From IMG/VR virus record IMGVR_UViG_3300028920_000184, positions 1 through 33,881 of that record: a stretch of 33,881 nucleotides of DNA, one strand, 5' to 3'. This document shows positions 1 through 19,703 of the stretch, piece after piece (the first letter of the stretch is position 1; the number at the start of each line of letters is the position of its first letter). The position numbers and the translations under genes were made by a program. This stretch comes from a virus. Below the pieces are notes generated by a model. The model searched no databases and was not told where the DNA came from. It saw nothing but the letters and a program-made list of their open reading frames with translations.

Positions 1-1389
1 AAGCCTGCCTTCCGGTCTGCGTTTGGGGTATCGGACGAGCAGGTACAGGAGATGCTGAAGGGGAATATGCTTATCAGCGTTGCCGATATGGCTGGCATGA
101 CTGAGGCCGATACTGAGTTTGAGCGTATGCTGGCGATGTATCATGCAACGCCAGCGCAGTTCAAGAATGGCATCCTTCGTCCGTTCCAGCGTCTCTTCCA
201 TTCCTTCCTTCAGGTTGGTGAGGCACTGGAGCGCATACCGAAGATTGCAGCCTATGACTTCCTCCAGAAGAATGGTGACATATCGGACAAGGAGATCGCT
301 CATATCGTCAGGACAAAGGCCGGATCCCCGGCGTTCTTAATCAAGGGCGAGTCTACCCGGTACACAAACAACGTCTTTCTCTTCAGCAATGCGATCATCC
401 AGTCCTGGCGGTCTGATCTTGAGGTAGTTCGTGACAATCCTTGGGAGGTTTCTGGCAAGGTGATGAAGTACGCCGTGGCGCCGAAGGTGCTCATGTGGAC
501 GCTATCGAGCGGGGCCCTTGCCTGGGCGTTCAAGCAGATGGGTGCCGATGATGATGACGAGCTCTACAAGTGGGCCGTCGGGATGGAGCGGGCTTATGCA
601 GGTGTCAGTGACTACGACATGACGAATTACACCGTCGTTCCGCTTTTCATGGCCGGGGATATGACGGTTTACCTGCGGGCGCCGATGGACGAGCAGCTCC
701 GGTTCGCTGGTGGCGTCGTCTACAAGATGATGAATCTGGCTACTGGCAAAGATAGCTCGATCAAGGGGCTCCAGGGGACGCTGGATTACACGATGGATCA
801 AGGGCCGGGCCTGAACCCTGCCTATGGACTGATATTGTCCACGATGGAGTATCTCAGCGGAAAGAACCCGATGGATAGCTCCAGGGACCGCCGGGCCGTT
901 CCGGAACAGATCTTCAAGGCCGGTGGGATGCGGGCCCATTACTCATATCTCAAGTGGATGTGGGGCCAGCTCGGACTGGGCTCGATCTACAAGATCCCGT
1001 ATGAGACGCCTGGCGAGGTCAAGAGCTGGATGGAGAATACGCTGGATCTTCCGCTGATCGGGGACACGGTCGGCCGGTTTATCAAGATCTCCAACTACGG
1101 GCTGGTAGAGAAGGCCAAGAGTATCCGTGACGAGGAGGAGTCGAAGCGGGCGCGAGAGCTGCTGAAGGTCCAAGATGCCGTCAACGCCCAACTTTCCGGG
1201 GACGATCTGACAGCGGAGGAGCGACGTGCCCTGAACAAGAACAAGAAGGCTGCGGATCGGTACAGGAAGCGTGGTAGGAACCGCGCCGCGGGCATGAACG
1301 CCAGGACGGCAGAGAGCATCGGCCGGACGAAGAAGGAAAAAGAGGCTATTCGGAAGTCGATGAGTCGGTATTTCAACGGTTTGAGGTAG
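1..1389 (+). CDS. C-terminal part of a large polyvalent (LPD38-like) virion protein, 5'-truncated by the window edge
   Basis: The reading frame is open from the first base, so the ATG at base 52 is probably internal and only the last 462 codons are visible. The segment 'LSGKNPMDSSRDRRAVPEQI' (about bases 850-915) and the helical, partly hydrophobic stretches before it resemble the C-terminal region of large polyvalent phage proteins (LPD38-type). These are thought to be packaged in the virion and injected with the DNA in podovirus-like phages. The last 90 residues are highly charged and probably helical (many Lys, Arg and Glu). Gene order agrees, because such proteins usually close the late operon and here the accessory genes follow. 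The family call rests on recollection of motifs, not an alignment. Alternative: an unrelated internal virion protein. Confidence 0.5.
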   Translation, partial: KPAFRSAFGVSDEQVQEMLKGNMLISVADMAGMTEADTEFERMLAMYHATPAQFKNGILRPFQRLFHSFLQVGEALERIPKIAAYDFLQKNGDISDKEIAHIVRTKAGSPAFLIKGESTRYTNNVFLFSNAIIQSWRSDLEVVRDNPWEVSGKVMKYAVAPKVLMWTLSSGALAWAFKQMGADDDDELYKWAVGMERAYAGVSDYDMTNYTVVPLFMAGDMTVYLRAPMDEQLRFAGGVVYKMMNLATGKDSSIKGLQGTLDYTMDQGPGLNPAYGLILSTMEYLSGKNPMDSSRDRRAVPEQIFKAGGMRAHYSYLKWMWGQLGLGSIYKIPYETPGEVKSWMENTLDLPLIGDTVGRFIKISNYGLVEKAKSIRDEEESKRARELLKVQDAVNAQLSGDDLTAEERRALNKNKKAADRYRKRGRNRAAGMNARTAESIGRTKKEKEAIRKSMSRYFNGLR

Positions 1390-3160: not shown

Positions 3161-3654
3161 AATATAGTGAAGTATCAATGCAGGAGGCGATTGAAGCGAT
3201 GCGAGGTGGGAAGCATGTTGAGGGCTATTGCGTCGCATATTGTTGGCGCAGGGCTATCATAGTGGACGATAGGCGCTATGAACGAGTGGTATGGAAGGAC
3301 AGTCAAGACTCAACCATCCACATGTATCTTAACCGCAAGTGGCGCATCTGCGAGGAAGAGCAAGAGTGGGAAGAGTGGGAGCGCTCAAAAGCGCATCGAA
3401 GTTCTATCCGATTTGAGCGTGGGGTTGGGACGTATGGGACTGTTGTTTGGCAGCAATGTCTCGGCTATACAGAACGCTTCGGTGGTTTCGTGTTCCGGCG
3501 TGATGGGCGAACAGACCTAGTCAATTTCGGATCTCCGGTGATGGGGCTGCACAAGAAAACCGGAGAACTGCACGCAATTTGGGATGTAGGATTCATCGAG
3601 GATTACAAAATCGTATACGCCGATGCTGTGCGTATGCGGCGGGAGGGTGAGTGA
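3157..3654 (+). CDS. hypothetical phage protein, N-terminus faintly DUF2829/Tad2-like
   Basis: The product has 165 residues. Its N-terminal 'SMQEAIEAMRGGKHVEG' resembles the opening helix of DUF2829 proteins, a family that includes Tad2, which sequesters the Thoeris signalling nucleotide. The later 'NRKWRICEEEQEWEEWE' is only vaguely like the DUF2829 C-terminal motif, and the protein continues about 90 residues beyond that domain. The similarity is therefore weak and could be chance. It starts in an ATGA overlap with the previous gene behind GAGGAGG and ends in Glu-Gly-Glu at the first of the repeated TGATG junctions. Safest description: unknown small cytoplasmic phage protein. Confidence 0.6.
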   Translation: MKYSEVSMQEAIEAMRGGKHVEGYCVAYCWRRAIIVDDRRYERVVWKDSQDSTIHMYLNRKWRICEEEQEWEEWERSKAHRSSIRFERGVGTYGTVVWQQCLGYTERFGGFVFRRDGRTDLVNFGSPVMGLHKKTGELHAIWDVGFIEDYKIVYADAVRMRREGE

Positions 3655-3905
3655 TGGACACAATCGTTATCGTTGCGGCATACATAGCCATTGGCTTCCT
3701 GCTTGTGTTGTTTGCCGTAATGCGTGGATGCGAGGATGAGGAAGCGATGCTTGGCTTGTTTATTGGGTGGCCTGCTCTCGCGATTCTTGTTGCGATCTTT
3801 CTTCCGGTCGCTGTTCCGTTATGGGTTTCGGAGTGGCTTATCCGGTGGAAAAAGAATCTTGATAAGCGAGGAAAGTTTGTCGAAGTGTTTAAGGAGGGTG
3901 AGTGA
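3654..3905 (+). CDS. small two-helix membrane protein
   Basis: The 83-residue product has two hydrophobic segments, about residues 4-23 (IVIVAAYIAIGFLLVLF) and 32-57 (LGLFIGWPALAILVAIFLPV), joined by a short acidic loop (GCEDEEA) and followed by a basic tail ending in FKEGE. This suggests an inner-membrane protein with the tail in the cytoplasm. It starts at a TGATG junction and ends at the next one. The GTG three bases upstream is rejected because of its spacing to GGAGGG. Possible roles are superinfection exclusion or lysis timing, but nothing in the sequence decides between them. Confidence 0.7.
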   Translation: MDTIVIVAAYIAIGFLLVLFAVMRGCEDEEAMLGLFIGWPALAILVAIFLPVAVPLWVSEWLIRWKKNLDKRGKFVEVFKEGE

Positions 3906-4333
3906 TGGACACGTGTGATAAGATGCGGGGGAAGACTCTAACCCTTACCGTTGGGCTTCCGCGTTCTGGGAAGTCTACCTGGGCAAGACGCGCTGGTGTG
4001 CCAATAGTAAACCCGGACTCGATCCGTTTGGCGCTACACGGCCAGAGATACGCACCAGCGGCAGAGCCGATGGTTTGGGCTATTGCGAAGTACATGGTTC
4101 ACAGCCTATTCCTTGCTGGGCACGATCATGTAGTTGTAGATGCCACCAACACAACAGAAAAGAGAAGGCGGTTCTGGGACTCCGATTTGTGGGCTGTGGA
4201 TTATGTGAGCATCGCAACAAGCAAGGAGGCGTGTATAGCGAGAGCAAGAGCGGAGAATGATCTCGAAATCATCCCGGTGATAGAGCGGATGGCAGAACAA
4301 TTTGAGCCGCTTGCGGCACAGGAGGGTGAGTGA
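3905..4333 (+). CDS. P-loop kinase, polynucleotide-kinase-like (AAA_33)
   Basis: The 142-residue product carries a clear Walker A motif GLPRSGKST (residues 17-25) after a beta strand, then NPDSIR (36-41), and a VVVDATNTTEKRRR segment (76-89) whose Asp and basic residues match the AAA_33/T4 Pnk kinase family. These enzymes transfer phosphate from ATP to 5'-OH ends or small substrates. The length equals a single kinase domain without the 3'-phosphatase domain of T4 Pnkp. It lies between a membrane protein and a coiled-coil protein, and ends in QEGE at the repeated junction. It may act in repair of cut RNA or DNA during defence, which is inference. A small-molecule kinase or zeta-toxin-like enzyme is an alternative. 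Confidence 0.8.
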   Translation: MDTCDKMRGKTLTLTVGLPRSGKSTWARRAGVPIVNPDSIRLALHGQRYAPAAEPMVWAIAKYMVHSLFLAGHDHVVVDATNTTEKRRRFWDSDLWAVDYVSIATSKEACIARARAENDLEIIPVIERMAEQFEPLAAQEGE

Positions 4334-4788
4334 TGGATATGCCAAATCCGAGTTACCCGATAGTCGACCCATGTCCTTTATGTGGAGCAGGACCATGTGA
4401 ATGTGGATGGCATGACCGAATAATGGACGTGATGCAGCGAGCAGAGAAGGCAGAGGCAGAGAACAAAGAGCTTCGGCGGGAAATAGTCAAACAAAACGTG
4501 TATGGAGTAGAGGATCTGAAGGCAGAGGTGGAGCGGCTGAATAAGACAACTCCAAAACCTCCTGTCTCGAATGACGGTGACCACTACATACGCGAGTCAG
4601 GTGTGTGGTATCGGCGACTACAGAAAGATGAATGGATAATCGCCAGTGATCTCGTTCTTGTTGACGGACCAGAATGGCAAGCGACTACCTGTGCAGGTAA
4701 ACAGGCTCCTGACCCCGCGTTTACCAGCCACCGAGTATACTATAGGCGTTTGCCGGAATGGATGCAGGAAAGCCTAAATAAGGCATAG
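4333..4788 (+). CDS. Zn-knuckle plus coiled-coil module protein, truncated by an in-frame amber codon
   Basis: The 151-residue product begins with CPLCGAGPCECGWH (residues 14-27, Cys/His cluster), followed by a coiled coil rich in KAEAENKELRRE and KAEVERLN (about 37-71) and a basic, Trp-rich domain (about 80-147). It stops at TAG (4786-4788), inside what would otherwise be another copy of the AAGGCAGAGGTGGAGCGG coding motif, with GAG changed to TAG. The same frame stays open for 27 more codons to a TGA at the standard junction, ending in EGE. The ancestral gene was thus probably 179 codons (4333-4872). Whether the shortened protein still works is unknown. Confidence 0.65.
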   Translation: MDMPNPSYPIVDPCPLCGAGPCECGWHDRIMDVMQRAEKAEAENKELRREIVKQNVYGVEDLKAEVERLNKTTPKPPVSNDGDHYIRESGVWYRRLQKDEWIIASDLVLVDGPEWQATTCAGKQAPDPAFTSHRVYYRRLPEWMQESLNKA

Positions 4789-4872
4789 GTGGAGCGGCTG
4801 CAAGAAGCCTTGTCATTTATCCATTTGGTATCGGCAGATAATCTTGGCTATGACTGCATGGAGGGTGAGTGA
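4789..4872 (+). pseudogene. cut-off 3' tail of the preceding coiled-coil gene
   Basis: After the amber codon the frame continues as VERLQEAL and 19 further residues, ending CMEGE and a TGA that overlaps the next ATG. This is the expected last heptads and Glu-Gly-Glu end of the upstream module. It has no start codon with a ribosome site of its own, so it is expressed only by readthrough or reinitiation. Confidence 0.65.
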
Positions 4873-5180
4873 TGAGCGAGAAAGATTATAGTGCTTTTGA
4901 TTACTGTGACGGATGTGGTGCTTTGCTAACCAAGGCAGAGAAACGCCACTATGACAATACCGCAGAAATGTGTTGTTCTGGGTATGAGTGCGGATGTCAA
5001 GGGCTTCCTCTATACCCTCCGCTTTGTTTTGAATGTACTGTGCCTCAACTGTACAAGGCGTATGAGAAGGCAGAGGCAGAGGTGGAGCGGTTGCGGAAGA
5101 TGGTCATAGACAACATGGGCTACATATACGGAGACTCCGACGATTTTCCTGATTGGGTGAAGGATCACTTTTTGAGATGA
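4872..5180 (+). CDS. Cys-rich N-terminus plus coiled-coil module protein
   Basis: The 102-residue product has CDGCG (residues 13-17) and a second cluster CCSGYECGC (36-44) with CFEC (54-57), consistent with one or two Zn sites. A helix KAYEKAEAEVERLRKMV (about 64-80) follows, which is the motif shared by the neighbouring modules. Unlike most genes of the array it ends DHFLR, 17 bases before the next start, and the Glu-Gly-Glu coding end lies in another frame in that gap. The end has therefore shifted relative to the ancestral module. The function is unknown. A DNA- or protein-binding adaptor is a guess from Cys pattern and coiled coil. Confidence 0.6.
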   Translation: MSEKDYSAFDYCDGCGALLTKAEKRHYDNTAEMCCSGYECGCQGLPLYPPLCFECTVPQLYKAYEKAEAEVERLRKMVIDNMGYIYGDSDDFPDWVKDHFLR

Positions 5181-5197
5181 GTGAGGAGGGTGAGTGA
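5177..5197 (+). other. six-codon minicistron, remnant of a module end
   Basis: ATGAGTGAGGAGGGTGAGTGA encodes Met-Ser-Glu-Glu-Gly-Glu. Its ATG overlaps the previous stop (ATGA) and its TGA overlaps the next start (TGATG). It bridges two genes whose stop and start are otherwise 17 bases apart and may preserve translational coupling. Confidence 0.35.
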
Positions 5198-5730
5198 TGA
5201 AAATGGATGAGTTTGTCGAGCTTACGAACGCTGTAATAGCCCAGACAGATACTTGGCGTCTTGCTTTGGAGTCTGTCCTGGACGTCATTCTTGTCGGTAA
5301 TGGATCTGCTTTCACCGAGGACCCGTCAGTAGTTCTTTGGGCTGTTAGGTCGATGCACGACATTCACGGCGGCGTTATGCCGGAATGGCTTTGCCACAAC
5401 GAGTTTGTTAATCAGGCGATTGGATCCATAGACGTCAAGTGTCCTTTGTCGTGGGGGCTCGGAGACAAGAGCTTTTGCTATGGCACTTACGTTATTGATC
5501 AGCGGGATATTATCGACGGCAATCTCTCTGAGCTTACCGCTCTCGTTCAAGATAGGGTTCGTGGCGCGTGTGCGTCTATTGGTTTTTTGATCTTGGATAA
5601 CCTTGAGAAAATGAAGTACGGAAAGCACAAGAACGATGAAGAGTGTTATTGTGAAAGCCTAAATAACACCGGCTTTCCATGCACATGCGGATGGTGTGTT
5701 TTTGAAGAGCTTTATGGGGAGGGTGATTGA
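5197..5730 (+). CDS. hypothetical protein with a C-terminal Cys cluster
   Basis: The 177-residue product starts at a TGATG junction (ATG six bases after GGAGGG; a second ATG two codons later is possible). The first 135 residues look like a globular, mostly helical domain without recognised motifs (KMDEFVELTNAVIAQ, HDIHGGVMPEWLCHNEF). The last 35 residues hold Cys at about 151, 153, 163, 165 and 168 (ECYCES, PCTCGWC), similar to the CECGW knuckle of the coiled-coil modules nearby, and the end is YGEGD at a junction with one mismatch. No family recognised. The shared Cys knuckle ties it to its neighbours. Confidence 0.6.
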   Translation: MKMDEFVELTNAVIAQTDTWRLALESVLDVILVGNGSAFTEDPSVVLWAVRSMHDIHGGVMPEWLCHNEFVNQAIGSIDVKCPLSWGLGDKSFCYGTYVIDQRDIIDGNLSELTALVQDRVRGACASIGFLILDNLEKMKYGKHKNDEECYCESLNNTGFPCTCGWCVFEELYGEGD

Positions 5731-6089
5731 TGAAGAATTGCGAGGTATGCGGAAAGAGCCACCACGCGCACACTGAGAATGACTTGAGCAACTGCCTGGT
5801 GTGGGCAAACGACGAAACAAGAAGGCTCAAGGAAGAGGTGGAGTGGCTTGGGAAGCATAGAGCAGAGTGCAAGAGACGGTATCAAGAGAGGGTGCAAGAG
5901 GTTTTAACTCTCAAGGCAGAGGTGAAGCGGTTGAAGAAACTATGCCACTCAATGGCGCAACTGCCACAAAAGCGAATGGAATACTATGCGTCACTCGCAC
6001 CAGCGGCAAAACCAAATCCAGTAATCGTTGCTATATTGGAAGAGATGGATGTTAAGTTACAGAGTATGATGCTGACGGAGGGTGAGTGA
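5730..6089 (+). CDS. CxxC plus coiled-coil module protein
   Basis: The 119-residue product begins with CEVCGKSHHAH (residues 4-14), a compact Cys/His site, then continues mainly as an alpha-helical coiled coil (about 25-85) with the module motifs KEEVEWLGKHRAE and KAEVKRLKKL, and ends LTEGE at a perfect junction. A TTG three bases before the chosen ATG is too close to GGAGGG. The layout (short metal site, then coiled coil, then EGE) repeats that of the 4333 and 6435 genes, so these look like diverged paralogues. The function is unknown. Oligomerisation is likely. Confidence 0.65.
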   Translation: MKNCEVCGKSHHAHTENDLSNCLVWANDETRRLKEEVEWLGKHRAECKRRYQERVQEVLTLKAEVKRLKKLCHSMAQLPQKRMEYYASLAPAAKPNPVIVAILEEMDVKLQSMMLTEGE

Positions 6090-6247
6090 TGTGGAAGAGG
6101 TTTGACCAGTGGATAGACCGTGGACTTGATCGCAGAGTTAGTGGCTGGCGGGAGACTATTCTGTGCGCTCCGCTCATGGCAGTGCAGTTTGTGTTGTTTC
6201 TGTGCTGTGCAATAGTCGGGCATCTGTTTGGAGAGGAAGGTGAGTGA
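6089..6247 (+). CDS. 52-residue single-pass membrane protein
   Basis: A short ORF spans exactly from one TGATG junction to the next. It has a basic N-terminus (MWKRFDQWIDRGLDRR), one strong hydrophobic helix (residues 24-47, ILCAPLMAVQFVLFLCCAIV) and the typical end GEEGE. Junctions at both ends and the classic positive-inside topology make it convincing despite its size. A possible role is a membrane-acting host-takeover or exclusion peptide, but this cannot be told from sequence. Confidence 0.7.
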   Translation: MWKRFDQWIDRGLDRRVSGWRETILCAPLMAVQFVLFLCCAIVGHLFGEEGE

Positions 6248-6435
6248 TGGGATTATACAACGTATACGAGGTCAAGACGACTAGTAGCGATGGTCCTGAA
6301 ATCTTCTGCGAAGGAGAGCCTGTCAGCCTTGAGAAAGTTGTTGCTGCCTTGAACGCATACGAGCACTTGCAACGCAAGGTAAGTCATGGCTGCATCAACT
6401 GCCATTGTTGCATCTGCGATGAGGAGGGTGAGTGA
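6247..6435 (+). CDS. small protein with a CINCHCCIC metal-binding tail
   Basis: The 62-residue product has an N-terminal beta-rich part (MGLYNVYEVKT, PEIFCEGEPVSLEK), a helix (KVVAALNAYEHLQRK) and a dense Cys/His cluster CINCHCCIC (about 49-57) directly before the DEEGE end. Five Cys in nine residues suggest a metal or redox site rather than a standard ribbon. It lies between perfect or near-perfect junctions on both sides. No family is recognised. Confidence 0.6.
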   Translation: MGLYNVYEVKTTSSDGPEIFCEGEPVSLEKVVAALNAYEHLQRKVSHGCINCHCCICDEEGE

Positions 6436-6884
6436 TGGAAGGTGAATTGGATATGGTTATCGAGGCAAACAATCATGAGGCAAGAAAAACAGAGATCCAT
6501 GGTCTTGTCATTGCATACGATTCTCGGGCGAGAAAAGATGAGGCAATACTGAGCATGGGAAGGAGAATTGAGAAGCTCCAGAAAGACAAAGAGGATTGGG
6601 TGCGCTTGGCAGGACAACGTGCTCTCCGGTTAGTGGATGTTAAGCACGATTTGAGTAAGGCTGAGGCAGAACTGGGGCGGTTGCGGAAAGGATTAGACGC
6701 ATACGAAGGAATGGATCACGCAGTTGATTATTATCGTGAACAGTGTTGCAAGGCAGAGGCAGAGAACAAGCAACTAAAGGCAGAGGTGGAGAGATTGCGG
6801 CAGGCACTACTGAAAGACCACCTGCCATGCTGCGGGATATTCGATGATGGCGTATGTGATTGTAGCTATGAGGATGGTGAGTGA
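6435..6884 (+). CDS. long coiled-coil module protein with Cys-rich end
   Basis: The 149-residue product is alpha-helical almost throughout: REAR- and KD-rich helices (about 30-65), then LSKAEAELGRLRKGLD (about 73-88) and CKAEAENKQLKAEVERLRQAL (about 105-125), the same motif as in the 4333 gene. The 20-base string AAGGCAGAGGCAGAGAACAA is identical at 4447 and 6750. A Cys cluster (LPCCGIFDDGVCDCSYE) precedes the usual DGE end. It resembles Ea22-type coiled-coil proteins of lambdoid phages in style only. Probably an oligomeric adaptor. The biochemical role is unknown. Confidence 0.65.
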   Translation: MEGELDMVIEANNHEARKTEIHGLVIAYDSRARKDEAILSMGRRIEKLQKDKEDWVRLAGQRALRLVDVKHDLSKAEAELGRLRKGLDAYEGMDHAVDYYREQCCKAEAENKQLKAEVERLRQALLKDHLPCCGIFDDGVCDCSYEDGE

Positions 6885-7141
6885 TGCGGTGTGGATACTG
6901 CTCTACTGTCGGTGATTATGGAGAAAAATGTAGGGGCTGTGGTGCGATAGTAGACACTAGGCTCCGTCTCCGTGGTAGGATAAGTGATCTTGCAAACGCC
7001 CCGAGTATGCGATTTCGAGGGATCAAGCTCGACGACATGAATAGGGATGAGCTCTACTGCGTGGTAAATGAGCTTGCCTTCAGAAAAATTCGTGAGGACC
7101 ACGACAAGCTAGGCCTAGATCTTGATGATATGTTTTCGTAG
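6884..7141 (+). CDS. Zn-ribbon protein, last gene of the array
   Basis: The 85-residue product opens with CGYC (residues 3-6) and CRGCG (16-20), a rubredoxin-type Zn ribbon, followed by a basic segment (RLRLRGRISDLANA) and an acidic helical C-terminus (KIREDHDKLGLDLDDMF). It starts at the last repeated junction (one mismatch) but ends with DMFS and no junction, so it closes the array. A new promoter begins about 20 bases downstream. A nucleic-acid binding role is plausible from the ribbon plus basic stretch, without family support. Confidence 0.6.
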   Translation: MRCGYCSTVGDYGEKCRGCGAIVDTRLRLRGRISDLANAPSMRFRGIKLDDMNRDELYCVVNELAFRKIREDHDKLGLDLDDMFS

Positions 7142-7162: not shown

Positions 7163-7190
7163 TTGACAATCCGGGCCATTTCGGTACAAT
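7163..7190 (+). promoter_or_regulatory. sigma70-type promoter for the replication operon leader
   Basis: A perfect TTGACA (7163-7168) and TACAAT (7185-7190) are separated by 16 bases, in the first gap after the small-gene array. Transcription would start near 7197. It is the best-matching promoter in the window and points to the leader and the helix-turn-helix gene. Confidence 0.75.
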
Positions 7191-7234
7191 GCAATCCATG
7201 ACGGACGGTGACAACGCGCACAACTCGATTATCC

Positions 7235-7263
7235 AGCGGGCGTTTCCATCTCTCTCGCCCGCT
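7235..7263 (+). other. leader hairpin
   Basis: AGCGGGCG (7235-7242) pairs perfectly with CGCCCGCT (7256-7263) around a 13-base pyrimidine-rich loop. It lies in the predicted leader RNA, five bases before the terminator hairpin. Confidence 0.55.
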
Positions 7264-7267
7264 TTCT

Positions 7268-7309
7268 GGCCCCTGGGGAGACTCGTCCTCGCCCTGGGGG
7301 CCTCTTTTT
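7268..7309 (+). terminator. strong terminator or attenuator directly upstream of the HTH gene
   Basis: GGCCCCTGGGG (7268-7278) pairs with CCCTGGGGGCC (7292-7302) over 11 pairs, two of them wobble, followed by TCTTTTT. The ribosome site GGAGG of the next gene begins two bases later, so a transcript from the promoter at 7163 must pass this terminator to express the operon. Read-through control (attenuation or antitermination) is therefore likely. Alternatively the 113-base RNA is itself the product. Confidence 0.75.
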
Positions 7310-7322
7310 AGGAGGCAATGGC

Positions 7323-7559
7323 ATGAGATACGATTACATGGCAGATAATGTTGACTGGTGGAATAGTGAGGAGGTAGCCGATTACGCGACGAAGGCCAGT
7401 GGTTGCGAGGTCACTTCCAGGGCAGTCAACTATTGGGGTCAGAAGGGCCTCATCAAGAGCCGGCGGTTCGGCCGGTTCCGTTACAATCGCGAGAGCGTCG
7501 AGAAGTTCGTTACCGAGACGTATTGCAAGGTCCGTTTTCTTGAGACAGAGGAGGAGTGA
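7323..7559 (+). CDS. MerR/excisionase-like helix-turn-helix protein
   Basis: The 78-residue product contains WNSEEVADYATKASGCEVTSRAVNYWGQKGLIKSRR-type sequence (residues about 13-48), the layout of a winged HTH in which a first helix recognises 'xxxVAxxx', a second 'VTSRAVNYW', and a basic wing (RRFGRFRYNRESVEKFV) follows. Such small proteins serve as excisionases/recombination directionality factors or as regulators. It lies directly behind the leader terminator with a well-placed GGAGG and overlaps the next gene (TGATG). It may control the operon or partner the serine recombinase at 15022-15789. Neither role can be proved here. Confidence 0.7.
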   Translation: MRYDYMADNVDWWNSEEVADYATKASGCEVTSRAVNYWGQKGLIKSRRFGRFRYNRESVEKFVTETYCKVRFLETEEE

Positions 7560-7825: not shown

Positions 7826-8013
7826 ATGGTACTTATCAGGTTTACAAGGTAGATGGTCATGGATGGCAATGGCAGATTGACGTTCGCAATCTGTTTGGTG
7901 TCGTGCCTCCAGTTGGCAGGGATTACTCCAACAAGGGTGGCGCCGTCAATGCTGCCCGCCGGGCTGCGATTAAGCTCGGTATCCAGATCGAGGAGGATCC
8001 CAACAGTGCGTGA
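7822..8013 (+). CDS. small hypothetical protein
   Basis: The 63-residue product starts at an ATG eight bases after GGAGGG, overlapping the previous stop as ATGA. It begins with two beta-type segments (TYQVYKVDGHGWQWQIDV) and has a helix containing NAARRAAIKLGIQIEED. It may be a small alpha/beta protein. No family is recognised. It overlaps the following GTG-started gene by eight bases, a normal spacing in this operon. Confidence 0.6.
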   Translation: MNGTYQVYKVDGHGWQWQIDVRNLFGVVPPVGRDYSNKGGAVNAARRAAIKLGIQIEEDPNSA

Positions 8014-12238: not shown

Positions 12239-13520
12239 TAGGCCGGATCAATACGCTGAAGCCTGTTGCATTGGCAGTATCCTACTAGACAAGAGCCACT
12301 ATTGGGATGTTGCCGAGCTCATTGGTGTAAACGATTTCTGCTACCCGCCCGCGAAGATTCTCTGGTTGGCAATGAGTGAATTGGCTGACGAGGGAAAGCC
12401 CATTGACGATGTTGTTCTCCTCCGTGATCGGCTTGGCCTCTCACCCTTCGGAGACGAGTCGGTTGCGGAGGTAATTTGCCGTCTGGTCGATTATGTACCG
12501 ACCGGTGTTCATGCTGCCCATTATGCAAAGGTGGTTGCTGAGAACAGCGCTCAGAGACAGCTCCGCGCTGTGATTCAGACTGCGGCAGAGCGTGAAGGCA
12601 CGTTCAGCGAGCAGAAGGATTGGATTCTTGGGCAGATTGATAAGATCGTCAAGAGGGAACGCGAGCACAAGAGCATCAAGGAGGCAATGGTCGATAACAG
12701 AGAAGCGCAAAGCAATGTCCGAATAACGACAGGATACGATACCCTTGACGATGCCCTCGGCGGTGGGCTCAAGGGTGGTCGTTACTGCGTTATCGGTGCA
12801 ACGCCGGGGACTGGAAAGACAGAGCTCGCTATGAACCTCGCGCTCAGCATGAGGCGGGAAGACAAAGCGGCCCGCACCTTGATAATCAGCCTGGAAATGC
12901 GATCTGATGAGATCGAGGACCGCTTGACAGCCAACATAGGCGAGATACCCAAGGGGGCCTCTGAGGCTTTGCGCGAGGGGCGAGCTCTGTCTAGTACCCG
13001 AGAAATGTATTACGATCGGTACATGAAGGCGGTCGATGATCTGGCCGCAAGGCCGATTATCCTCTGGCGTCCGTGGCAGCTCACCAGGGAGGGCCTAGAC
13101 GCGAAGCTGGCTCAATTGTCCGGTGAGTTTGATTGCTGCATCCTCGACTATCTCCAGCTCATCAAGCGTAGTCACCCGCGTGAAAGACAGTTTGAGACGG
13201 TCACAGAGGCCTCAATACTGTGCAAGCAGTTGGCCCGGCGGCATGATATACCGTTTATCGCTGTCAGCCAGCTCTCACGCTCCAGTGGGAAGGAGGCTCG
13301 TTACCCGGTCATAAGCGACCTGCGGCAGTCCGGGCAGATCGAGCAGGATGCCGATCAGGTAATTCTACTCTGGCGCCCGCATGAGCGTGGTGCATCTGAC
13401 GAGCTGATGCGCGTGGATCTGGCGAAGAATAGAGGGGGTCAGACCGTCGTGTTCAAATTGCCGTACAACATGGTTGACGGCCGCATTGGCAATATCTGGA
13501 ATGGTGAGGAGGATTTCTAA
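12216..13520 (+). CDS. dnaB: replicative DNA helicase, DnaB family
   Basis: The 434-residue product has an N-terminal DnaB-N-like helical domain (about 10-120; EACCIGSILLD, FCYPPAKILW) and a RecA-type core: Walker A GATPGTGKT (194-202), ISLEM (224-228), Walker B CCILDYLQL with Asp311, SQLSR (351-355) and DLRQSGQIEQDADQV (368-382) with the arginine-finger region. It unwinds DNA ahead of the fork as a hexamer. The length is near the usual 440-470. It follows its presumed loader and precedes RusA. The ATG is directly adjacent to a purine-rich GGAAAGG; an alternative TTG start three codons later is possible. Confidence 0.93.
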   Translation: MARLNDIDRPDQYAEACCIGSILLDKSHYWDVAELIGVNDFCYPPAKILWLAMSELADEGKPIDDVVLLRDRLGLSPFGDESVAEVICRLVDYVPTGVHAAHYAKVVAENSAQRQLRAVIQTAAEREGTFSEQKDWILGQIDKIVKREREHKSIKEAMVDNREAQSNVRITTGYDTLDDALGGGLKGGRYCVIGATPGTGKTELAMNLALSMRREDKAARTLIISLEMRSDEIEDRLTANIGEIPKGASEALREGRALSSTREMYYDRYMKAVDDLAARPIILWRPWQLTREGLDAKLAQLSGEFDCCILDYLQLIKRSHPRERQFETVTEASILCKQLARRHDIPFIAVSQLSRSSGKEARYPVISDLRQSGQIEQDADQVILLWRPHERGASDELMRVDLAKNRGGQTVVFKLPYNMVDGRIGNIWNGEEDF

Positions 13521-15021: not shown

Positions 15022-15789
15022 CTAGTCGGCATCGACCCATTCAACCTCCGAATCGGTAAACTGGCTCTTGGGGGCCGGCACATTCTTCCGCTTCATCATG
15101 CGGTCGATCTGTCCATGCTGAAAGGGCCCGCCCTCGCGGTTCGTCCTTCCCTCCTCGTTCATGACTCGGGCTATGCTGCGAAGGGTCAAGCCTTGGGTCC
15201 TGAGTTCTACCGCTCGCCTGATGTTGTCGGCTTCAACTTCGTTCGTAATGAGTCGGGCCGGGTCATCCGGGTCGCGTTGCTTTCCGTATGGCGGCTTACC
15301 CCCCACGGCGCGGCCGTTCTTCTGGTGGGCTCTGCTGGCCGCGCTGATCCTCGCGGCCTGCTTCTTCTTCTGGTACTCTGCCAGTACGCCCAGGATTCTC
15401 CTAATTAGCTTGTCCTCTTCGGTCGTGCTCCATGTCCCTTCTCCTCCTATGCTGAGAAGTCTGGCGCCCTTGCGCTCAAGAATCCTCTCGATGTCGAATG
15501 ACATATATACTGATCGTGCCAACCTGTCGAGCCGATGAACAATCAACGTCTCGCCCTTCTGCAAGTCCTGAAGGCACTGCCACAGTCCGGGCCGGTCAAC
15601 CTCATCGCCTTTGGCCTCCTCGTCGGTGTAACGGCCTCTGATCGCGTATCCGTGGCTCTCGCAGTATTCCCGTATCTCACGGTCCTGGTATTCGATACTC
15701 TTACACTCTGCGGCATTTGGGCGCGGGCTCCATCGCATATAGATACGGGCCGGGCTTCGCTTGTACTTGGTTTTCGGTTCCTTCTTCAT
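15022..15789 (-). CDS. serine recombinase (resolvase/invertase type)
   Basis: The 255-residue product shows the serine recombinase core: IYMRWS with catalytic Ser21, SIEYQDREIREYC (31-43), GDEVDRPGL (61-69) and the strand HRLDRLARS (85-93), then a long helix and a DNA-binding part containing GGKPPYGK, LTLRSIARVMNEEG and a basic end. It cuts and rejoins DNA through a Ser-linked intermediate. At 255 residues it is shorter than large phage integrases (450 or more) but longer than simple resolvases. It could integrate the phage or resolve dimers. The ATG has GGAGGT seven bases upstream and overlaps the previous stop (ATGA). A GTG 15 bases upstream is less likely. Confidence 0.88.
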   Translation of the reverse strand: MKKEPKTKYKRSPARIYMRWSPRPNAAECKSIEYQDREIREYCESHGYAIRGRYTDEEAKGDEVDRPGLWQCLQDLQKGETLIVHRLDRLARSVYMSFDIERILERKGARLLSIGGEGTWSTTEEDKLIRRILGVLAEYQKKKQAARISAASRAHQKNGRAVGGKPPYGKQRDPDDPARLITNEVEADNIRRAVELRTQGLTLRSIARVMNEEGRTNREGGPFQHGQIDRMMKRKNVPAPKSQFTDSEVEWVDAD

Positions 15790-16091
15790 TGCTTCGACCT
15801 CCACAGTTTAGCGGCTGCGTCAAGCAGGGCCGCGGCTAGTCGTGTATCTCCTCGCTCCATGGCTTCTTGGGCCAGGGCGATACCTTCGGCGAGGGCCGGC
15901 GTCGTCGCGATCGCCTTCCCGATCTTGCCGGGGCTCTCCCTCGGGCCGTCGTGCGTGTAGATCCATCCCGCCGGGTATCCTGCCCGGTTGATTGTCCGGG
16001 CAAGGATGACCCCGCCGTGGGCTGGGCTGTCCAGTCTCTCTGGGTTCTTATTGGTATATCGCCATCCCTGCATCTTGCGGTCCCCCCTCAT
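15786..16091 (-). CDS. hypothetical protein upstream of the recombinase
   Basis: The 101-residue product (GWRYTNKNPERLDSPAHGGVILARTI ... ALAEGIALAQEAMERGDTRLAAALLDAAAKLWRSKQ) has a beta-rich first half and an Ala-rich helical end. The ATG overlaps the stop of a 30-residue membrane peptide (ATGA). A second ATG six codons later has a better ribosome site (GAGGGG) and could be the true start. Its stop overlaps the recombinase start. Coupling suggests joint expression, but no function is recognised. Confidence 0.55.
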   Translation of the reverse strand: MRGDRKMQGWRYTNKNPERLDSPAHGGVILARTINRAGYPAGWIYTHDGPRESPGKIGKAIATTPALAEGIALAQEAMERGDTRLAAALLDAAAKLWRSKQ

Positions 16092-17441: not shown

Positions 17442-17930
17442 CTACATCAATCCCTTTTCGGCAAAGGAAGTGTGTCCTTCTCTTGCAATGATAACGTGAT
17501 CTAATACGCGGATCCCGAGGATCTCGCCGGCTTCAATGAGTCGCGTCGTCAGCTTGCGGTCCTCGTGGCTCGGCGTTGGGTCGCCGCTCGGGTGGTTGTG
17601 GACGAACAGCACGGCGGCAGCGCCGTCGATCAAGGCCGGCCGGTACACTTCCCGCGGGTGGACGAGCGAAGCGGTGAGAGTCCCGAGACTGACAAGGTGT
17701 CGGTCGATCTCGCGGTGTTTCTGGTCAAGCGTGAGAACCCAGAAGGCCTCTTGCGGCAGTCGGGCCGCTTCGGGGAACATTGCCGCGACGTCTCTGCTTA
17801 CGCGGGCCGGCTCTCCGTGGCTCTCTTTTATCATGTATTGCGTGGCTCTGATCTGCATCGCGTAAGTGCGGCGGGCCGGCTTCGCCTCCTGTGGCGTATC
17901 CATTCCTGGGAATAGGCTTTCTTGCTGCAT
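17442..17930 (-). CDS. RadC-like JAB/MPN metal-dependent protein
   Basis: The 162-residue product carries the RadC/JAMM motif: Glu61 (PQEAFWVLTLD), then FVHNHPSGDPTPSHED with His111, His113 and Asp124. It has the RadC core (DGAAAVLFVHNHPSGD, RVLDHVIIAREGHTSF) but not the N-terminal helix-hairpin-helix of chromosomal RadC. Such short forms are typical of plasmids, conjugative elements and phages, where the function is unclear. It is the first gene of the leftward operon, with the ribosome block AAGGAGGACGACAATG and a promoter within 65 bases. The N-terminal 25 residues are low in structure. Confidence 0.85.
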   Translation of the reverse strand: MQQESLFPGMDTPQEAKPARRTYAMQIRATQYMIKESHGEPARVSRDVAAMFPEAARLPQEAFWVLTLDQKHREIDRHLVSLGTLTASLVHPREVYRPALIDGAAAVLFVHNHPSGDPTPSHEDRKLTTRLIEAGEILGIRVLDHVIIAREGHTSFAEKGLM

Positions 17931-17965
17931 TGTCGTCCTCCTTCGTTCCGGGTTTGTATACGGTC

Positions 17966-17993
17966 AATGTACATGGTATCGGTACAATGTCAA
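17966..17993 (-). promoter_or_regulatory. promoter of the leftward RadC operon
   Basis: On the minus strand TTGACA (complement of 17988-17993) is followed 16 bases later by TACATT (17966-17971), about 35 bases before the RadC start. The -35 box is part of a CGCTTGACA operator half-site, so a bound repressor would block it. Confidence 0.5.
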
Positions 17994-17996
17994 GCG
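17988..17996 (+). promoter_or_regulatory. TGTCAAGCG operator half-site at the RadC promoter
   Basis: The nine bases TGTCAAGCG match the arms of the palindrome at 18401-18424. Here the second arm is degenerate (GACATT at 18001-18006, within the inverted pair AATGTC/GACATT). It overlaps the -35 box of the leftward promoter. Confidence 0.45.
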
Positions 17997-18064
17997 TCTA
18001 GACATTAAAAAGTCTGATAATCGTATAAGTAGCGTCTTGTCAATGAGTTGCTGGGCGAGAAAAT

Positions 18065-18073
18065 CGCTTGACG
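18065..18073 (-). promoter_or_regulatory. isolated CGCTTGAC half-site at the 3' end of the RHH gene
   Basis: CGCTTGACG differs from the operator arm CGCTTGACA in the last base and touches the last codon of the ribbon-helix-helix gene. It may be an auxiliary site for the same regulator. Weak alone, it is notable for being the fourth copy within 450 bases. Confidence 0.3.
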
Positions 18074-18370
18074 CTACAGGCCGCGGGGCGGCTTGCGTCT
18101 TGCTGCTCGGTAGGCTGAGCGTACCATATAAGCGGAGAGACTGAGGCCTGCGGCGTCGGCCATTGCCTGGAGGTCGGCGCGTTCTGCCGGCGTCAACCTG
18201 ATCGTTGCAAGGCAGGATCGGCGCTGATCGGCGTCGAGACGTGGCCGGCCGCGGTGCTCGGCCTGCGTCCTGGTCGGCGGCGTGGGCGTAGGCCTGGGAG
18301 ACTGGCCGGCCTCGGCCTCGGGTTCTTGGTGTGTGGTGGAGATGCCGAATAGGCCTGGGTCGATTGTCAT
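18074..18370 (-). CDS. ribbon-helix-helix (MobC/CopG-like) DNA-binding protein
   Basis: The 98-residue product has a Pro/Thr-rich, probably flexible N-terminus (1-45) and a C-terminal RHH domain: LATIRLTPAERADLQAMADAAGLSLSAYMVRSAYRAARR, where the strand (about 53-58) precedes two helices. Such proteins bind DNA as dimers, as plasmid relaxosome accessories or autorepressors. The ATG chosen lies seven bases after a -10 box (TAGACT), so the mRNA would be almost leaderless. A longer frame upstream exists, but it would run through the promoter and palindrome. The inverted repeat just upstream is a likely operator. It is transcribed towards the RadC operon. Confidence 0.65.
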   Translation of the reverse strand: MTIDPGLFGISTTHQEPEAEAGQSPRPTPTPPTRTQAEHRGRPRLDADQRRSCLATIRLTPAERADLQAMADAAGLSLSAYMVRSAYRAARRKPPRGL

Positions 18371-18377
18371 GGATGGC

Positions 18378-18406
18378 AGTCTACCCGGCGACCGTGTCGG
18401 TGTCAA
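18378..18406 (-). promoter_or_regulatory. promoter of the RHH gene, nearly leaderless
   Basis: On the minus strand TTGACA (complement of 18401-18406) is followed after 17 bases by TAGACT (18378-18383), and the ATG starts seven bases further on. The start of transcription would thus coincide with the start codon. There is no Shine-Dalgarno sequence, unlike nearly every other gene of the window. Confidence 0.55.
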
Positions 18407-18424
18407 GCGATTTGGCGCTTGACA
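18401..18424. promoter_or_regulatory. perfect operator palindrome TGTCAAGCG / CGCTTGACA
   Basis: Two nine-base arms, TGTCAAGCG (18401-18409) and CGCTTGACA (18416-18424), are perfect inverted copies with a six-base spacer. Each arm contains a TTGACA -35 hexamer, one facing the RHH gene and one facing away, so a bound dimer or tetramer could silence both directions. Confidence 0.6.
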
Positions 18425-19078
18425 AGGGCCGGCCTCGGGTGTAGGGTTCTGAGGTCCGACCGTCGCGACGACAGACGGACAGGGGCGCCCAACCAGCGCG
18501 CCGGCATCCCGGGGGGAGTAGGGCGAGGGCCCGCGGTCCCGGGCATATAGGACCATGAGCGAGCGGTGTCAGCCTGCGGGCTGCACGGTCCACCGCCGGC
18601 CTTCGGCCTTCCCCTGGTTGCTGTTGGGCGTAGAGCTCCGCGGATAGGTGTCGACAGGGCCGCGGGGGGGTCAGGGGGGGCGCTCTCTCCAGACATCACG
18701 ATTGCAGGCGCAAGCGCTGAGCGCTGCCGAGTCACTCCAGTGCTACCACTACCCCGAATCCATCCAACGGCCTTACAGGGCCTCTGTGGGCTTCACGTTT
18801 TGCACGTTCGGCCGTGAATCGCCGGATTCAGGCGGTCAAGGCCTGCTTCGGGCCGATGAGCGTAGGCGCTGAGCTCCGGGCCTGCCGGACTGGGCGTGAG
18901 TCTCCGGGCCCGTCGGCCTGCGGGCCTGCGGTCCTGCGGGCGGGCGCCTCGGTGGGAGCTGGCGCTGGCGCGGTGGAGAGTCGAAGCGGGTGAAGGCGTG
19001 CGGGCGCTGGCAGGCGAGTCGAGGCGAAGGTGCTGACGTGCTGACGTGGGGACGTGCGGGGGCGGGGGTGAGTGAGTG

Positions 19079-19116
19079 GGGACGGAGGGACGGAGGGACG
19101 GAGGGACGGAGGGACG
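19079..19116 (+). repeat. tandem octamer GGGACGGA, 4.75 copies
   Basis: Four perfect copies of GGGACGGA are followed by GGGACG. The preceding 40 bases hold further runs (GCGGGGGCGGGGGTG) and GACGTG repeats. The regular GGG tracts could form a G-quadruplex in single-stranded DNA or RNA. Such simple repeats in phages often lie at origins or packaging signals. Confidence 0.7.
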
Positions 19117-19554
19117 TGAGAGGATGAGGCGGCTGCGATGGCGCGAGCGAGCGGTCGCCGGCCTCGGTCGCCTGCTGACGGCCTGCGTGCCATGAGCGTG
19201 AAGGCGCTGGCCTGCTGATCCCCGCCTGCCGTACACAATGGTGTATGATCGTACCGGCCTGCAGTGCTATACAGTAGGCGCAGATGGCCTGCTGTGCGGG
19301 CGCTGGTCAGTTGAGAGGCAGAGGGGGGACCCATCGACATCAGAACTTGAACCGGACCCCCCGGCCAGAGGCTCGTCCCCCATCCCAATTACCAAGCGCG
19401 AGCGAGAACACTTCCTCAGCCCCTCCTCATGTCTCTAAACTCGGAAAAATGCTACACTTTTCGCGGGATGTCTCGTTTTTGTCCATATCTGAGACGAGCG
19501 TTAGGCTCTATTTTGGAAAAATATGGTACTTTTTTTTTCACATCTTCAGAAGTG

Positions 19555-19615
19555 GTGAAAATCCCCATATACCTAGTGAAAAGTCTCACATTTGGATGTG
19601 GTGAAAAGTCTCATG
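19555..19615 (+). repeat. three GTGAAAA direct repeats (iteron-like)
   Basis: GTGAAAATCC (19555), GTGAAAAGTCTCACA (19576) and GTGAAAAGTCTCATG (19601) lie 21 and 25 bases apart, about two helical turns. An inverted copy TTTTCAC is part of the dyad TTTTCAC/GTGAAAA just upstream (about 19535-19561). This layout is typical of sites for a repeat-binding initiator or activator. Confidence 0.55.
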
Positions 19616-19703
19616 TTGTGGGAATGTTGTTGACAAGCCGATAATGTTGGCGTATTGGGTTTTGTATTGCGGCGTGGGTATCACGGTTTGGGGGGGATAT
19701 GGG

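Follow-up and report, generated by a model that had tools for sequence, protein, structure and literature searches.

An IMG/VR virus record, IMGVR_UViG_3300028920_000184, raises the question of how a small ribbon–helix–helix (RHH) gene is controlled when a perfect palindrome covers its -35 box and its start codon follows almost directly on its -10 box. The whole 33,881-nt stretch of the record (the window) was analyzed, and the features concerned are collected in table 1. We consider it moderately probable that the gene encodes a near-leaderless autorepressor that would also restrain the neighboring cluster of radC and recombinase genes. An initial annotation had described an autoregulated lysogeny or copy-control switch; its RHH fold, near-leaderless geometry, and palindrome over the -35 box were all recovered here, and copy control was not.

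Table 1. Coordinates of the RHH locus and related features in the window
Feature	Position	Strand	Detail
RHH regulator gene, 98 aa	18074..18370	-	ATG 18370; frame open to stop 18074
-10 hexamer TAGACT of RHH promoter	18378..18383	-	7 nt (GCCATCC) ahead of ATG 18370
-35 hexamer TTGACA of RHH promoter	18401..18406	-	within proximal palindrome arm
Perfect inverted repeat TGTCAAGCG-N6-CGCTTGACA, proposed operator O1	18401..18424	.	centre at -41.5 or -42.5
Weak divergent promoter-like site	18419..18447	+	TTGACA in distal arm, 17 nt, TAGGGT
AAATCGCTTGACG	18061..18073	+	first 12 nt = O1 inner half-site; directly after RHH stop codon
Second exact TGTCAAGCG (CGCTTGACA on minus strand), proposed half-operator O2	17988..17996	+	contains radC -35
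radC promoter TTGACA-16-TACATT	17966..17993	-	10/12
RadC-like JAB-domain protein	17442..17930	-	good Shine–Dalgarno site
Serine recombinase	15022..15804	-	final gene of leftward cluster
Second leaderless-type start	7163..7202	+	TTGACA-16-TACAAT-GCAATCC-ATGAC

Residues 50–86 of the product matched the NikA-like family (Pfam PF21983) with an E-value of 9.6e-10 and 38.9 bits, the cut-off being 27 (39 bits in a repeat scan), the match spanning only positions 2–39 of the 72 in the profile. The TacA1 profile of Pfam scored just under its cut-off, NCBIfam MobA and RelB matches were both below cut-off, and a PHROGs scan gave only a weak Arc-like repressor. An AlphaFold2 model of the monomer, built on a four-row alignment, places this C-terminal domain behind a proline-rich N-terminal tail (residues ~1–49); the N-terminal half is of low confidence, and block means of pLDDT reach at least 90 over residues 61–90. 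Helices are confident at 61–74 and 78–91, and DSSP assigns no strand in the monomer model. Two fold searches with the model returned the RHH proteins AtaR, TacA, CopG, Arc, and NikA as the nearest solved structures, the matches being modest (Z-scores of 6 to 7, Foldseek E-values above 0.3). The profile match above cut-off and the fold matches agree with the initial call of an RHH gene, and the model supports assigning this fold to the 98-residue product.

The gene is foreign to the phage in its codon usage (-0.28 per codon, the lowest of the 40 training genes scoring -0.07), and an antisense frame scores slightly better, also over residues 1–49 alone, so that the exact N-terminus is uncertain. 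ATG 18370 is nevertheless the natural start because codons 2–49 contain no in-frame ATG, GTG, or TTG, codon usage being unable to confirm residues 1–49. Two upstream in-frame starts were discarded: ATG 18556, for which the stretch 18371–18556 scores -0.56 per codon, and TTG 18406, which sits within the -35 box.

The two hexamers of the RHH promoter are separated by 17 nt and match the consensus at 10 of 12 letters, and the -10 box ends seven bases before the ATG as first noted. Judged from the usual promoter spacing, the transcript would begin at 18370–18374, leaving 0–4 nt before the AUG. With a pairing energy to the anti-Shine–Dalgarno sequence of -3.8 kcal/mol and no purine box, the gene has no usable Shine–Dalgarno site. 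The initial annotation was right in this and slightly overstated in adding that almost all other genes have one: 40 of the 49 gene calls pair at -4 kcal/mol or better, and the eight that fail besides the RHH gene may include wrong start calls (two belong to the RHH cluster). None of the other calls in this set of 49 carries a -10-like box (at least 4/6, with A2 and T6) 6–9 nt before its start. “TA-led” leaderless genes, which occur widely among bacteria, are defined by a TAnnnT box some 10–12 bp ahead of the start codon together with the lack of a Shine–Dalgarno site (PMC3160421). By its sequence the RHH gene fits this definition, the first base of TAGACT lying 13 nt ahead of its ATG. For the plus-strand TTGACA at 18419–18424, the best available -10 is only TAGGGT (3/6).

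The palindrome has 9-bp arms that are 100% complementary around a 6-nt spacer, ATTTGG, and spans about -54 to -31. Both arms contain TTGACA, as the initial annotation had observed, and the proximal one supplies the RHH -35 box. Inverted repeats of this size are not rare by themselves; the window has four perfect ones (9 bp or longer, loop no longer than 20 nt), and six Markov controls had between 0 and 3. The exact 9-mer (TGTCAAGCG/CGCTTGACA), however, occurs four times in the window versus 0.39 expected, a number reached in none of 100 shuffles, and no strong promoter with its NNN-35 9-mer returning within 20 nt as a perfect inverted repeat was found in 100 Markov windows.

One further exact copy of the 9-mer covers the radC -35 box and a fourth lies at 12921 inside a DnaB-like gene, and AAATCGCTTGAC is seen again at 18061–18072, past the RHH stop codon. 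Within the 143-bp gap at 17931–18073, TTGAC/GTCAA occurs four times versus 0.48 expected (p 0.0008, 5,000 simulations). Based mainly on the radC -35 copy, the copy at 18061–18072, and this excess in the gap, we propose that the 9-mer may be a shared operator half-site, the radC and intergenic copies being single half-sites and not full palindromes. The region between the RHH gene and radC (17986–18077) is also rich in dyads, namely GTCTAGAC, AATGTC-N9-GACATT, and GTAGCGTC...GACGCTAC.

The RHH gene heads a leftward cluster followed by RadC, a 66-aa protein, a phrog_5203 protein, 92- and 101-aa proteins, and the serine recombinase; genes for DnaB/RusA/Cas4-like replication proteins run opposite to it, as do those for the terminase, portal, and capsid. 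In the proposed mechanism, RNA polymerase with a sigma-70-type factor would start the RHH transcript ~0–4 nt from the AUG. As the protein accumulates, RHH dimers would occupy both palindrome arms, mask the -35 box, and silence their own promoter, and through the half-site over the radC -35 the protein would restrain radC and the genes behind it as far as the serine recombinase. If so, one promoter, one palindrome, and one small protein with no 5′ untranslated region would make up a minimal switch, in a phage that resembles none in the collections searched, and its translation would rest on leaderless initiation and not on a Shine–Dalgarno site.

The RHH protein is the only regulator found above a Pfam cut-off in the record. 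It is the only strong candidate repressor of the phage because the profile search that matched the NikA-like family found no HTH_3, Phage_CI_repr, AAA_31, or Relaxase in the record, and the MerR/HTH_17 protein encoded at 7323–7559 is weak. The palindrome over the -35 box and the 9-mer at the radC -35 fit the autoregulation proposed in the initial annotation as well as control of the cluster. Its lysogeny component is only plausible, judging from the serine recombinase in the cluster and the lack of an HTH_3 or Phage_CI_repr match in the record. Of what would mark a lysogeny repressor, control of lytic promoters and upkeep of the prophage, the locus offers only its cluster context and the weak divergent promoter-like site. 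Copy control is not supported: a copy-control or partition protein should have a partner rep or ParA, and neither the AAA_31 search of the record for a ParA-type ATPase nor the scanned cluster genes yielded one, nor was a relaxase matched. No RNA family was found in the whole window, and a tRNA scan likewise found nothing.

Four other explanations were weighed against autorepression. It is rather unlikely that the palindrome is the operator of another regulator, either a host factor or the 7323–7559 protein, with the RHH protein serving for example as an antitoxin or a relaxosome-type DNA-bending factor. RHH proteins of the NikA-like family often belong to relaxosomes or toxin–antitoxin pairs, in keeping with the MobA, RelB, and TacA1 matches below cut-off, and the 7323 protein could supply the regulator. 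However, a relaxosome accessory protein should have a relaxase on the same element, and Pfam Relaxase (PF03432) had no match in the record, which may be a fragment; the cluster has no defence or toxin match except weak JAB and PD-Lambda-5, and the palindrome abuts the RHH gene itself.

Autoactivation, in which the RHH protein would activate its own leaderless promoter through the palindrome, is improbable. Lambda CI acts in this way at PRM from an operator near -42, which we take to be the classical class II activator position; the palindrome is centred in the same place, and the RHH mRNA is probably leaderless like that of lambda cI. Yet the -35 box is a perfect TTGACA inside the site, leaving little to activate, and a protein bound to that arm should compete with sigma. 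More improbable still is a coincidence of promoter, palindrome, and start codon, the gene being read from another promoter: chance alone gives 0 to 3 perfect inverted repeats this long (9 bp or more) in a random window of equal size, but none lay on a strong promoter in the 100 Markov windows, and the 9-mer is present again on the neighboring radC promoter.

The dif-site, attachment-site, and terminator readings of the palindrome were all dropped as very improbable: dif sites have arms flanking a 6-bp centre, which the palindrome resembles, and a serine recombinase is encoded within the cluster, but the core lacks the inner arm sequence of dif, the recombinase gene is ~2.6 kb away, neither strand has a T-run after the hairpin, and no terminator was called there.

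Autorepression through an operator that includes the -35 region is the habit of CopG, whose RHH fold the phage protein shares according to the fold matches (CopG of pMV158, PDB 1ea4 and 2cpg). CopG has a rep partner, whereas no rep or par partner was seen beside the phage RHH gene. CopG is cotranscribed with the rep gene and sets copy number (PMC5717011). The RHH protein MobC of plasmid RA3 represses its own operon, mobC-nic, through a promoter palindrome (PMC4175270). Like MobC, the phage protein is an RHH protein of the relaxosome-accessory kind whose gene comes first in its operon and has a palindrome, here a candidate operator, within its promoter. The MobC operator lies between -35 and -10 and mobC has a ribosome binding site, a relaxase, and an oriT, whereas the phage palindrome covers the -35 box and the phage gene has no Shine–Dalgarno site and no Relaxase match in the record. 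As a separate lead only, AGCGTCTnG occurs twice in the RHH–radC gap (17993 and 18031, its sole plus-strand copies in the window) and resembles the RA3 MobC operator arm AGCGTCTG (PMC4175270).

The leaderless start has its own precedents among phage regulators. CI and Cro of PY54 and lambda are helix–turn–helix (HTH) proteins. Mapping showed the cI and cro mRNAs of PY54 to be leaderless (PMC4488713), and the cI mRNA of lambda naturally lacks a leader too (PMC4965119, PMC9031893). The phage gene shares with these a regulator, a leaderless mRNA, and an operator-controlled promoter (the last two predicted here); PY54 and lambda have paired CI and Cro and mapped transcripts, whereas here the protein is RHH, no partner repressor was found in the record, and the start is a prediction. 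Leaderless repressor mRNAs and RHH autorepression through a promoter palindrome are thus already known separately, and the phage locus is a new combination and not a new kind of system.

Searches of the collections turned up no close relative, and the palindrome is known as an RHH operator candidate from this one sequence. Relatives of the RHH protein were not recovered from viral_contigs by single-sequence search, by a search with the four-row alignment, or from plasmids, and the phages collection gave only a 48-residue match to an inovirus gene at an E-value of 0.04. Three of 299 pattern hits in genome_contigs are relatives (from Opitutaceae, Ruminococcaceae, and Bacillota MAGs), and inspection by eye of the 80 nt before their candidate starts showed an RHH-type promoter in none of the three. 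No related phage emerged when viral_contigs was searched with terminase and integrase. The pairing with RadC is not conserved, a NikA-like match above cut-off being present in 0 and below it in 1 of 30 radC-bearing virus records, taken from 64 radC loci.

The palindrome pattern itself occurs in 42 stretches of viral_contigs, which by their flanks (assigned by eye) comprise 39 from one phage lineage, two from the L076/L078 phage, and one other (L103); downstream frames were inspected for eight of the 42. A family-wide operator was rejected, the 39 stretches being a single lineage in which the palindrome precedes an AAA-type gene having a leader. That lineage (L066-L075, L077, L079-L102, L104-L107) keeps the exact TGTCAAGCG-N6-CGCTTGACA as the -35 region of this gene, which also has a Shine–Dalgarno site. 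The L076/L078 phage has arms and spacing identical to O1, TTGACA in the arm, and a 51-aa HTH gene whose ATG follows TAGGAT by 7 nt; the HTH protein is unrelated to the RHH protein and the promoter spacer is 18 nt, and the likeness would appear to be convergent or due to chance.

A second leaderless-type start was found within the window itself. The window has five promoter-like sites of at least 10/12 versus 1.69 expected (the largest of 100 controls having six), and two of the five, the RHH promoter and that at 7163 (+), have an ATG exactly 7 nt past the -10 box, the chance expectation being 0.25 for any start codon 5–8 nt past it. The RHH and 7198 starts have GCMATCCATGAC in common at 11 of 12 letters, and a third exact copy of GCNATCCATGAC lies at 7856 (-), inside a coding gene. 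The 37-codon frame from 7198 crosses a strong hairpin with a U-run and ends at a UAG within the Shine–Dalgarno site of the 7323 HTH gene; the region 7163–7322 (+), with its strong promoter and a frame running through an intrinsic terminator, is thus a possible attenuator with a leaderless upstream frame. The leader fold is unexceptional (16 of 200 shuffles fold as well or better), and the frame is a lead only because open frames of 37 codons are expected by chance fairly often. Upstream frames at the 5′ terminus that affect downstream genes are known in E. coli (PMC4965119). Just before this region, the small early genes at 3654–7141 (+) have mostly GGAGGGTGAGTGATG-like junctions, which suggests translational coupling.

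Scanning viral contigs twice for the pattern TTGACA-16..18-TAnnnT-7-ATGA produced 77 rows, of which 44 had a frame of at least 40 codons and 29 remained after similar ones were removed; the 20 of 40–120 aa were scanned and the nine longer ones set aside. Seven of the 20 match HTH families at E-values up to 0.01, and one more is WhiB; HTH matches were seen in at most three of 83 Shine–Dalgarno-led frames of like size in the same loci (25 of the 27 families displayed; Fisher p 0.0003), both frame sets being mechanical, HTH membership being judged by the analyst, and L076 belonging to both the palindrome and the leaderless set. Small HTH genes are thus over-represented behind leaderless-type starts in other phages. 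That unrelated phages repeatedly place such starts ahead of small DNA-binding genes hints at a testable general rule for how phages produce a regulator in low, self-limiting amounts. ATCC before the ATG was rejected as a leaderless motif (38 stretches with the real pattern, 39 with a scrambled control).

It is a long shot that all of these observations belong together: in a tailed phage, a relaxosome-type NikA-like RHH protein would have come to serve as the only repressor, with CGCTTGACA half-sites over -35 boxes controlling its own leaderless gene and the radC–recombinase cluster, the start module TAnAnTGCMATCCATGAC would tie it to the translation-gated attenuator at 7198, and small leaderless autoregulators with a palindrome on the -35 box would arise repeatedly in unrelated phages.

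Upstream of the RHH locus, ~1.2 kb at 18430–19640 has no convincing coding frame, is mostly of 65–75% GC versus ~55% for the phage, has no similarity in the phages collection, and includes 4.8 copies of GGGACGGA at 19079–19116. Among the leaderless-type promoters of other phages, palindromes are visible over several, most of them not beyond shuffles. In L144, the region from the -10 box to the ATG of a leaderless-type 238-codon gene (frame 7917–7204, minus strand) is a perfect 28-bp palindrome with 14-bp arms.
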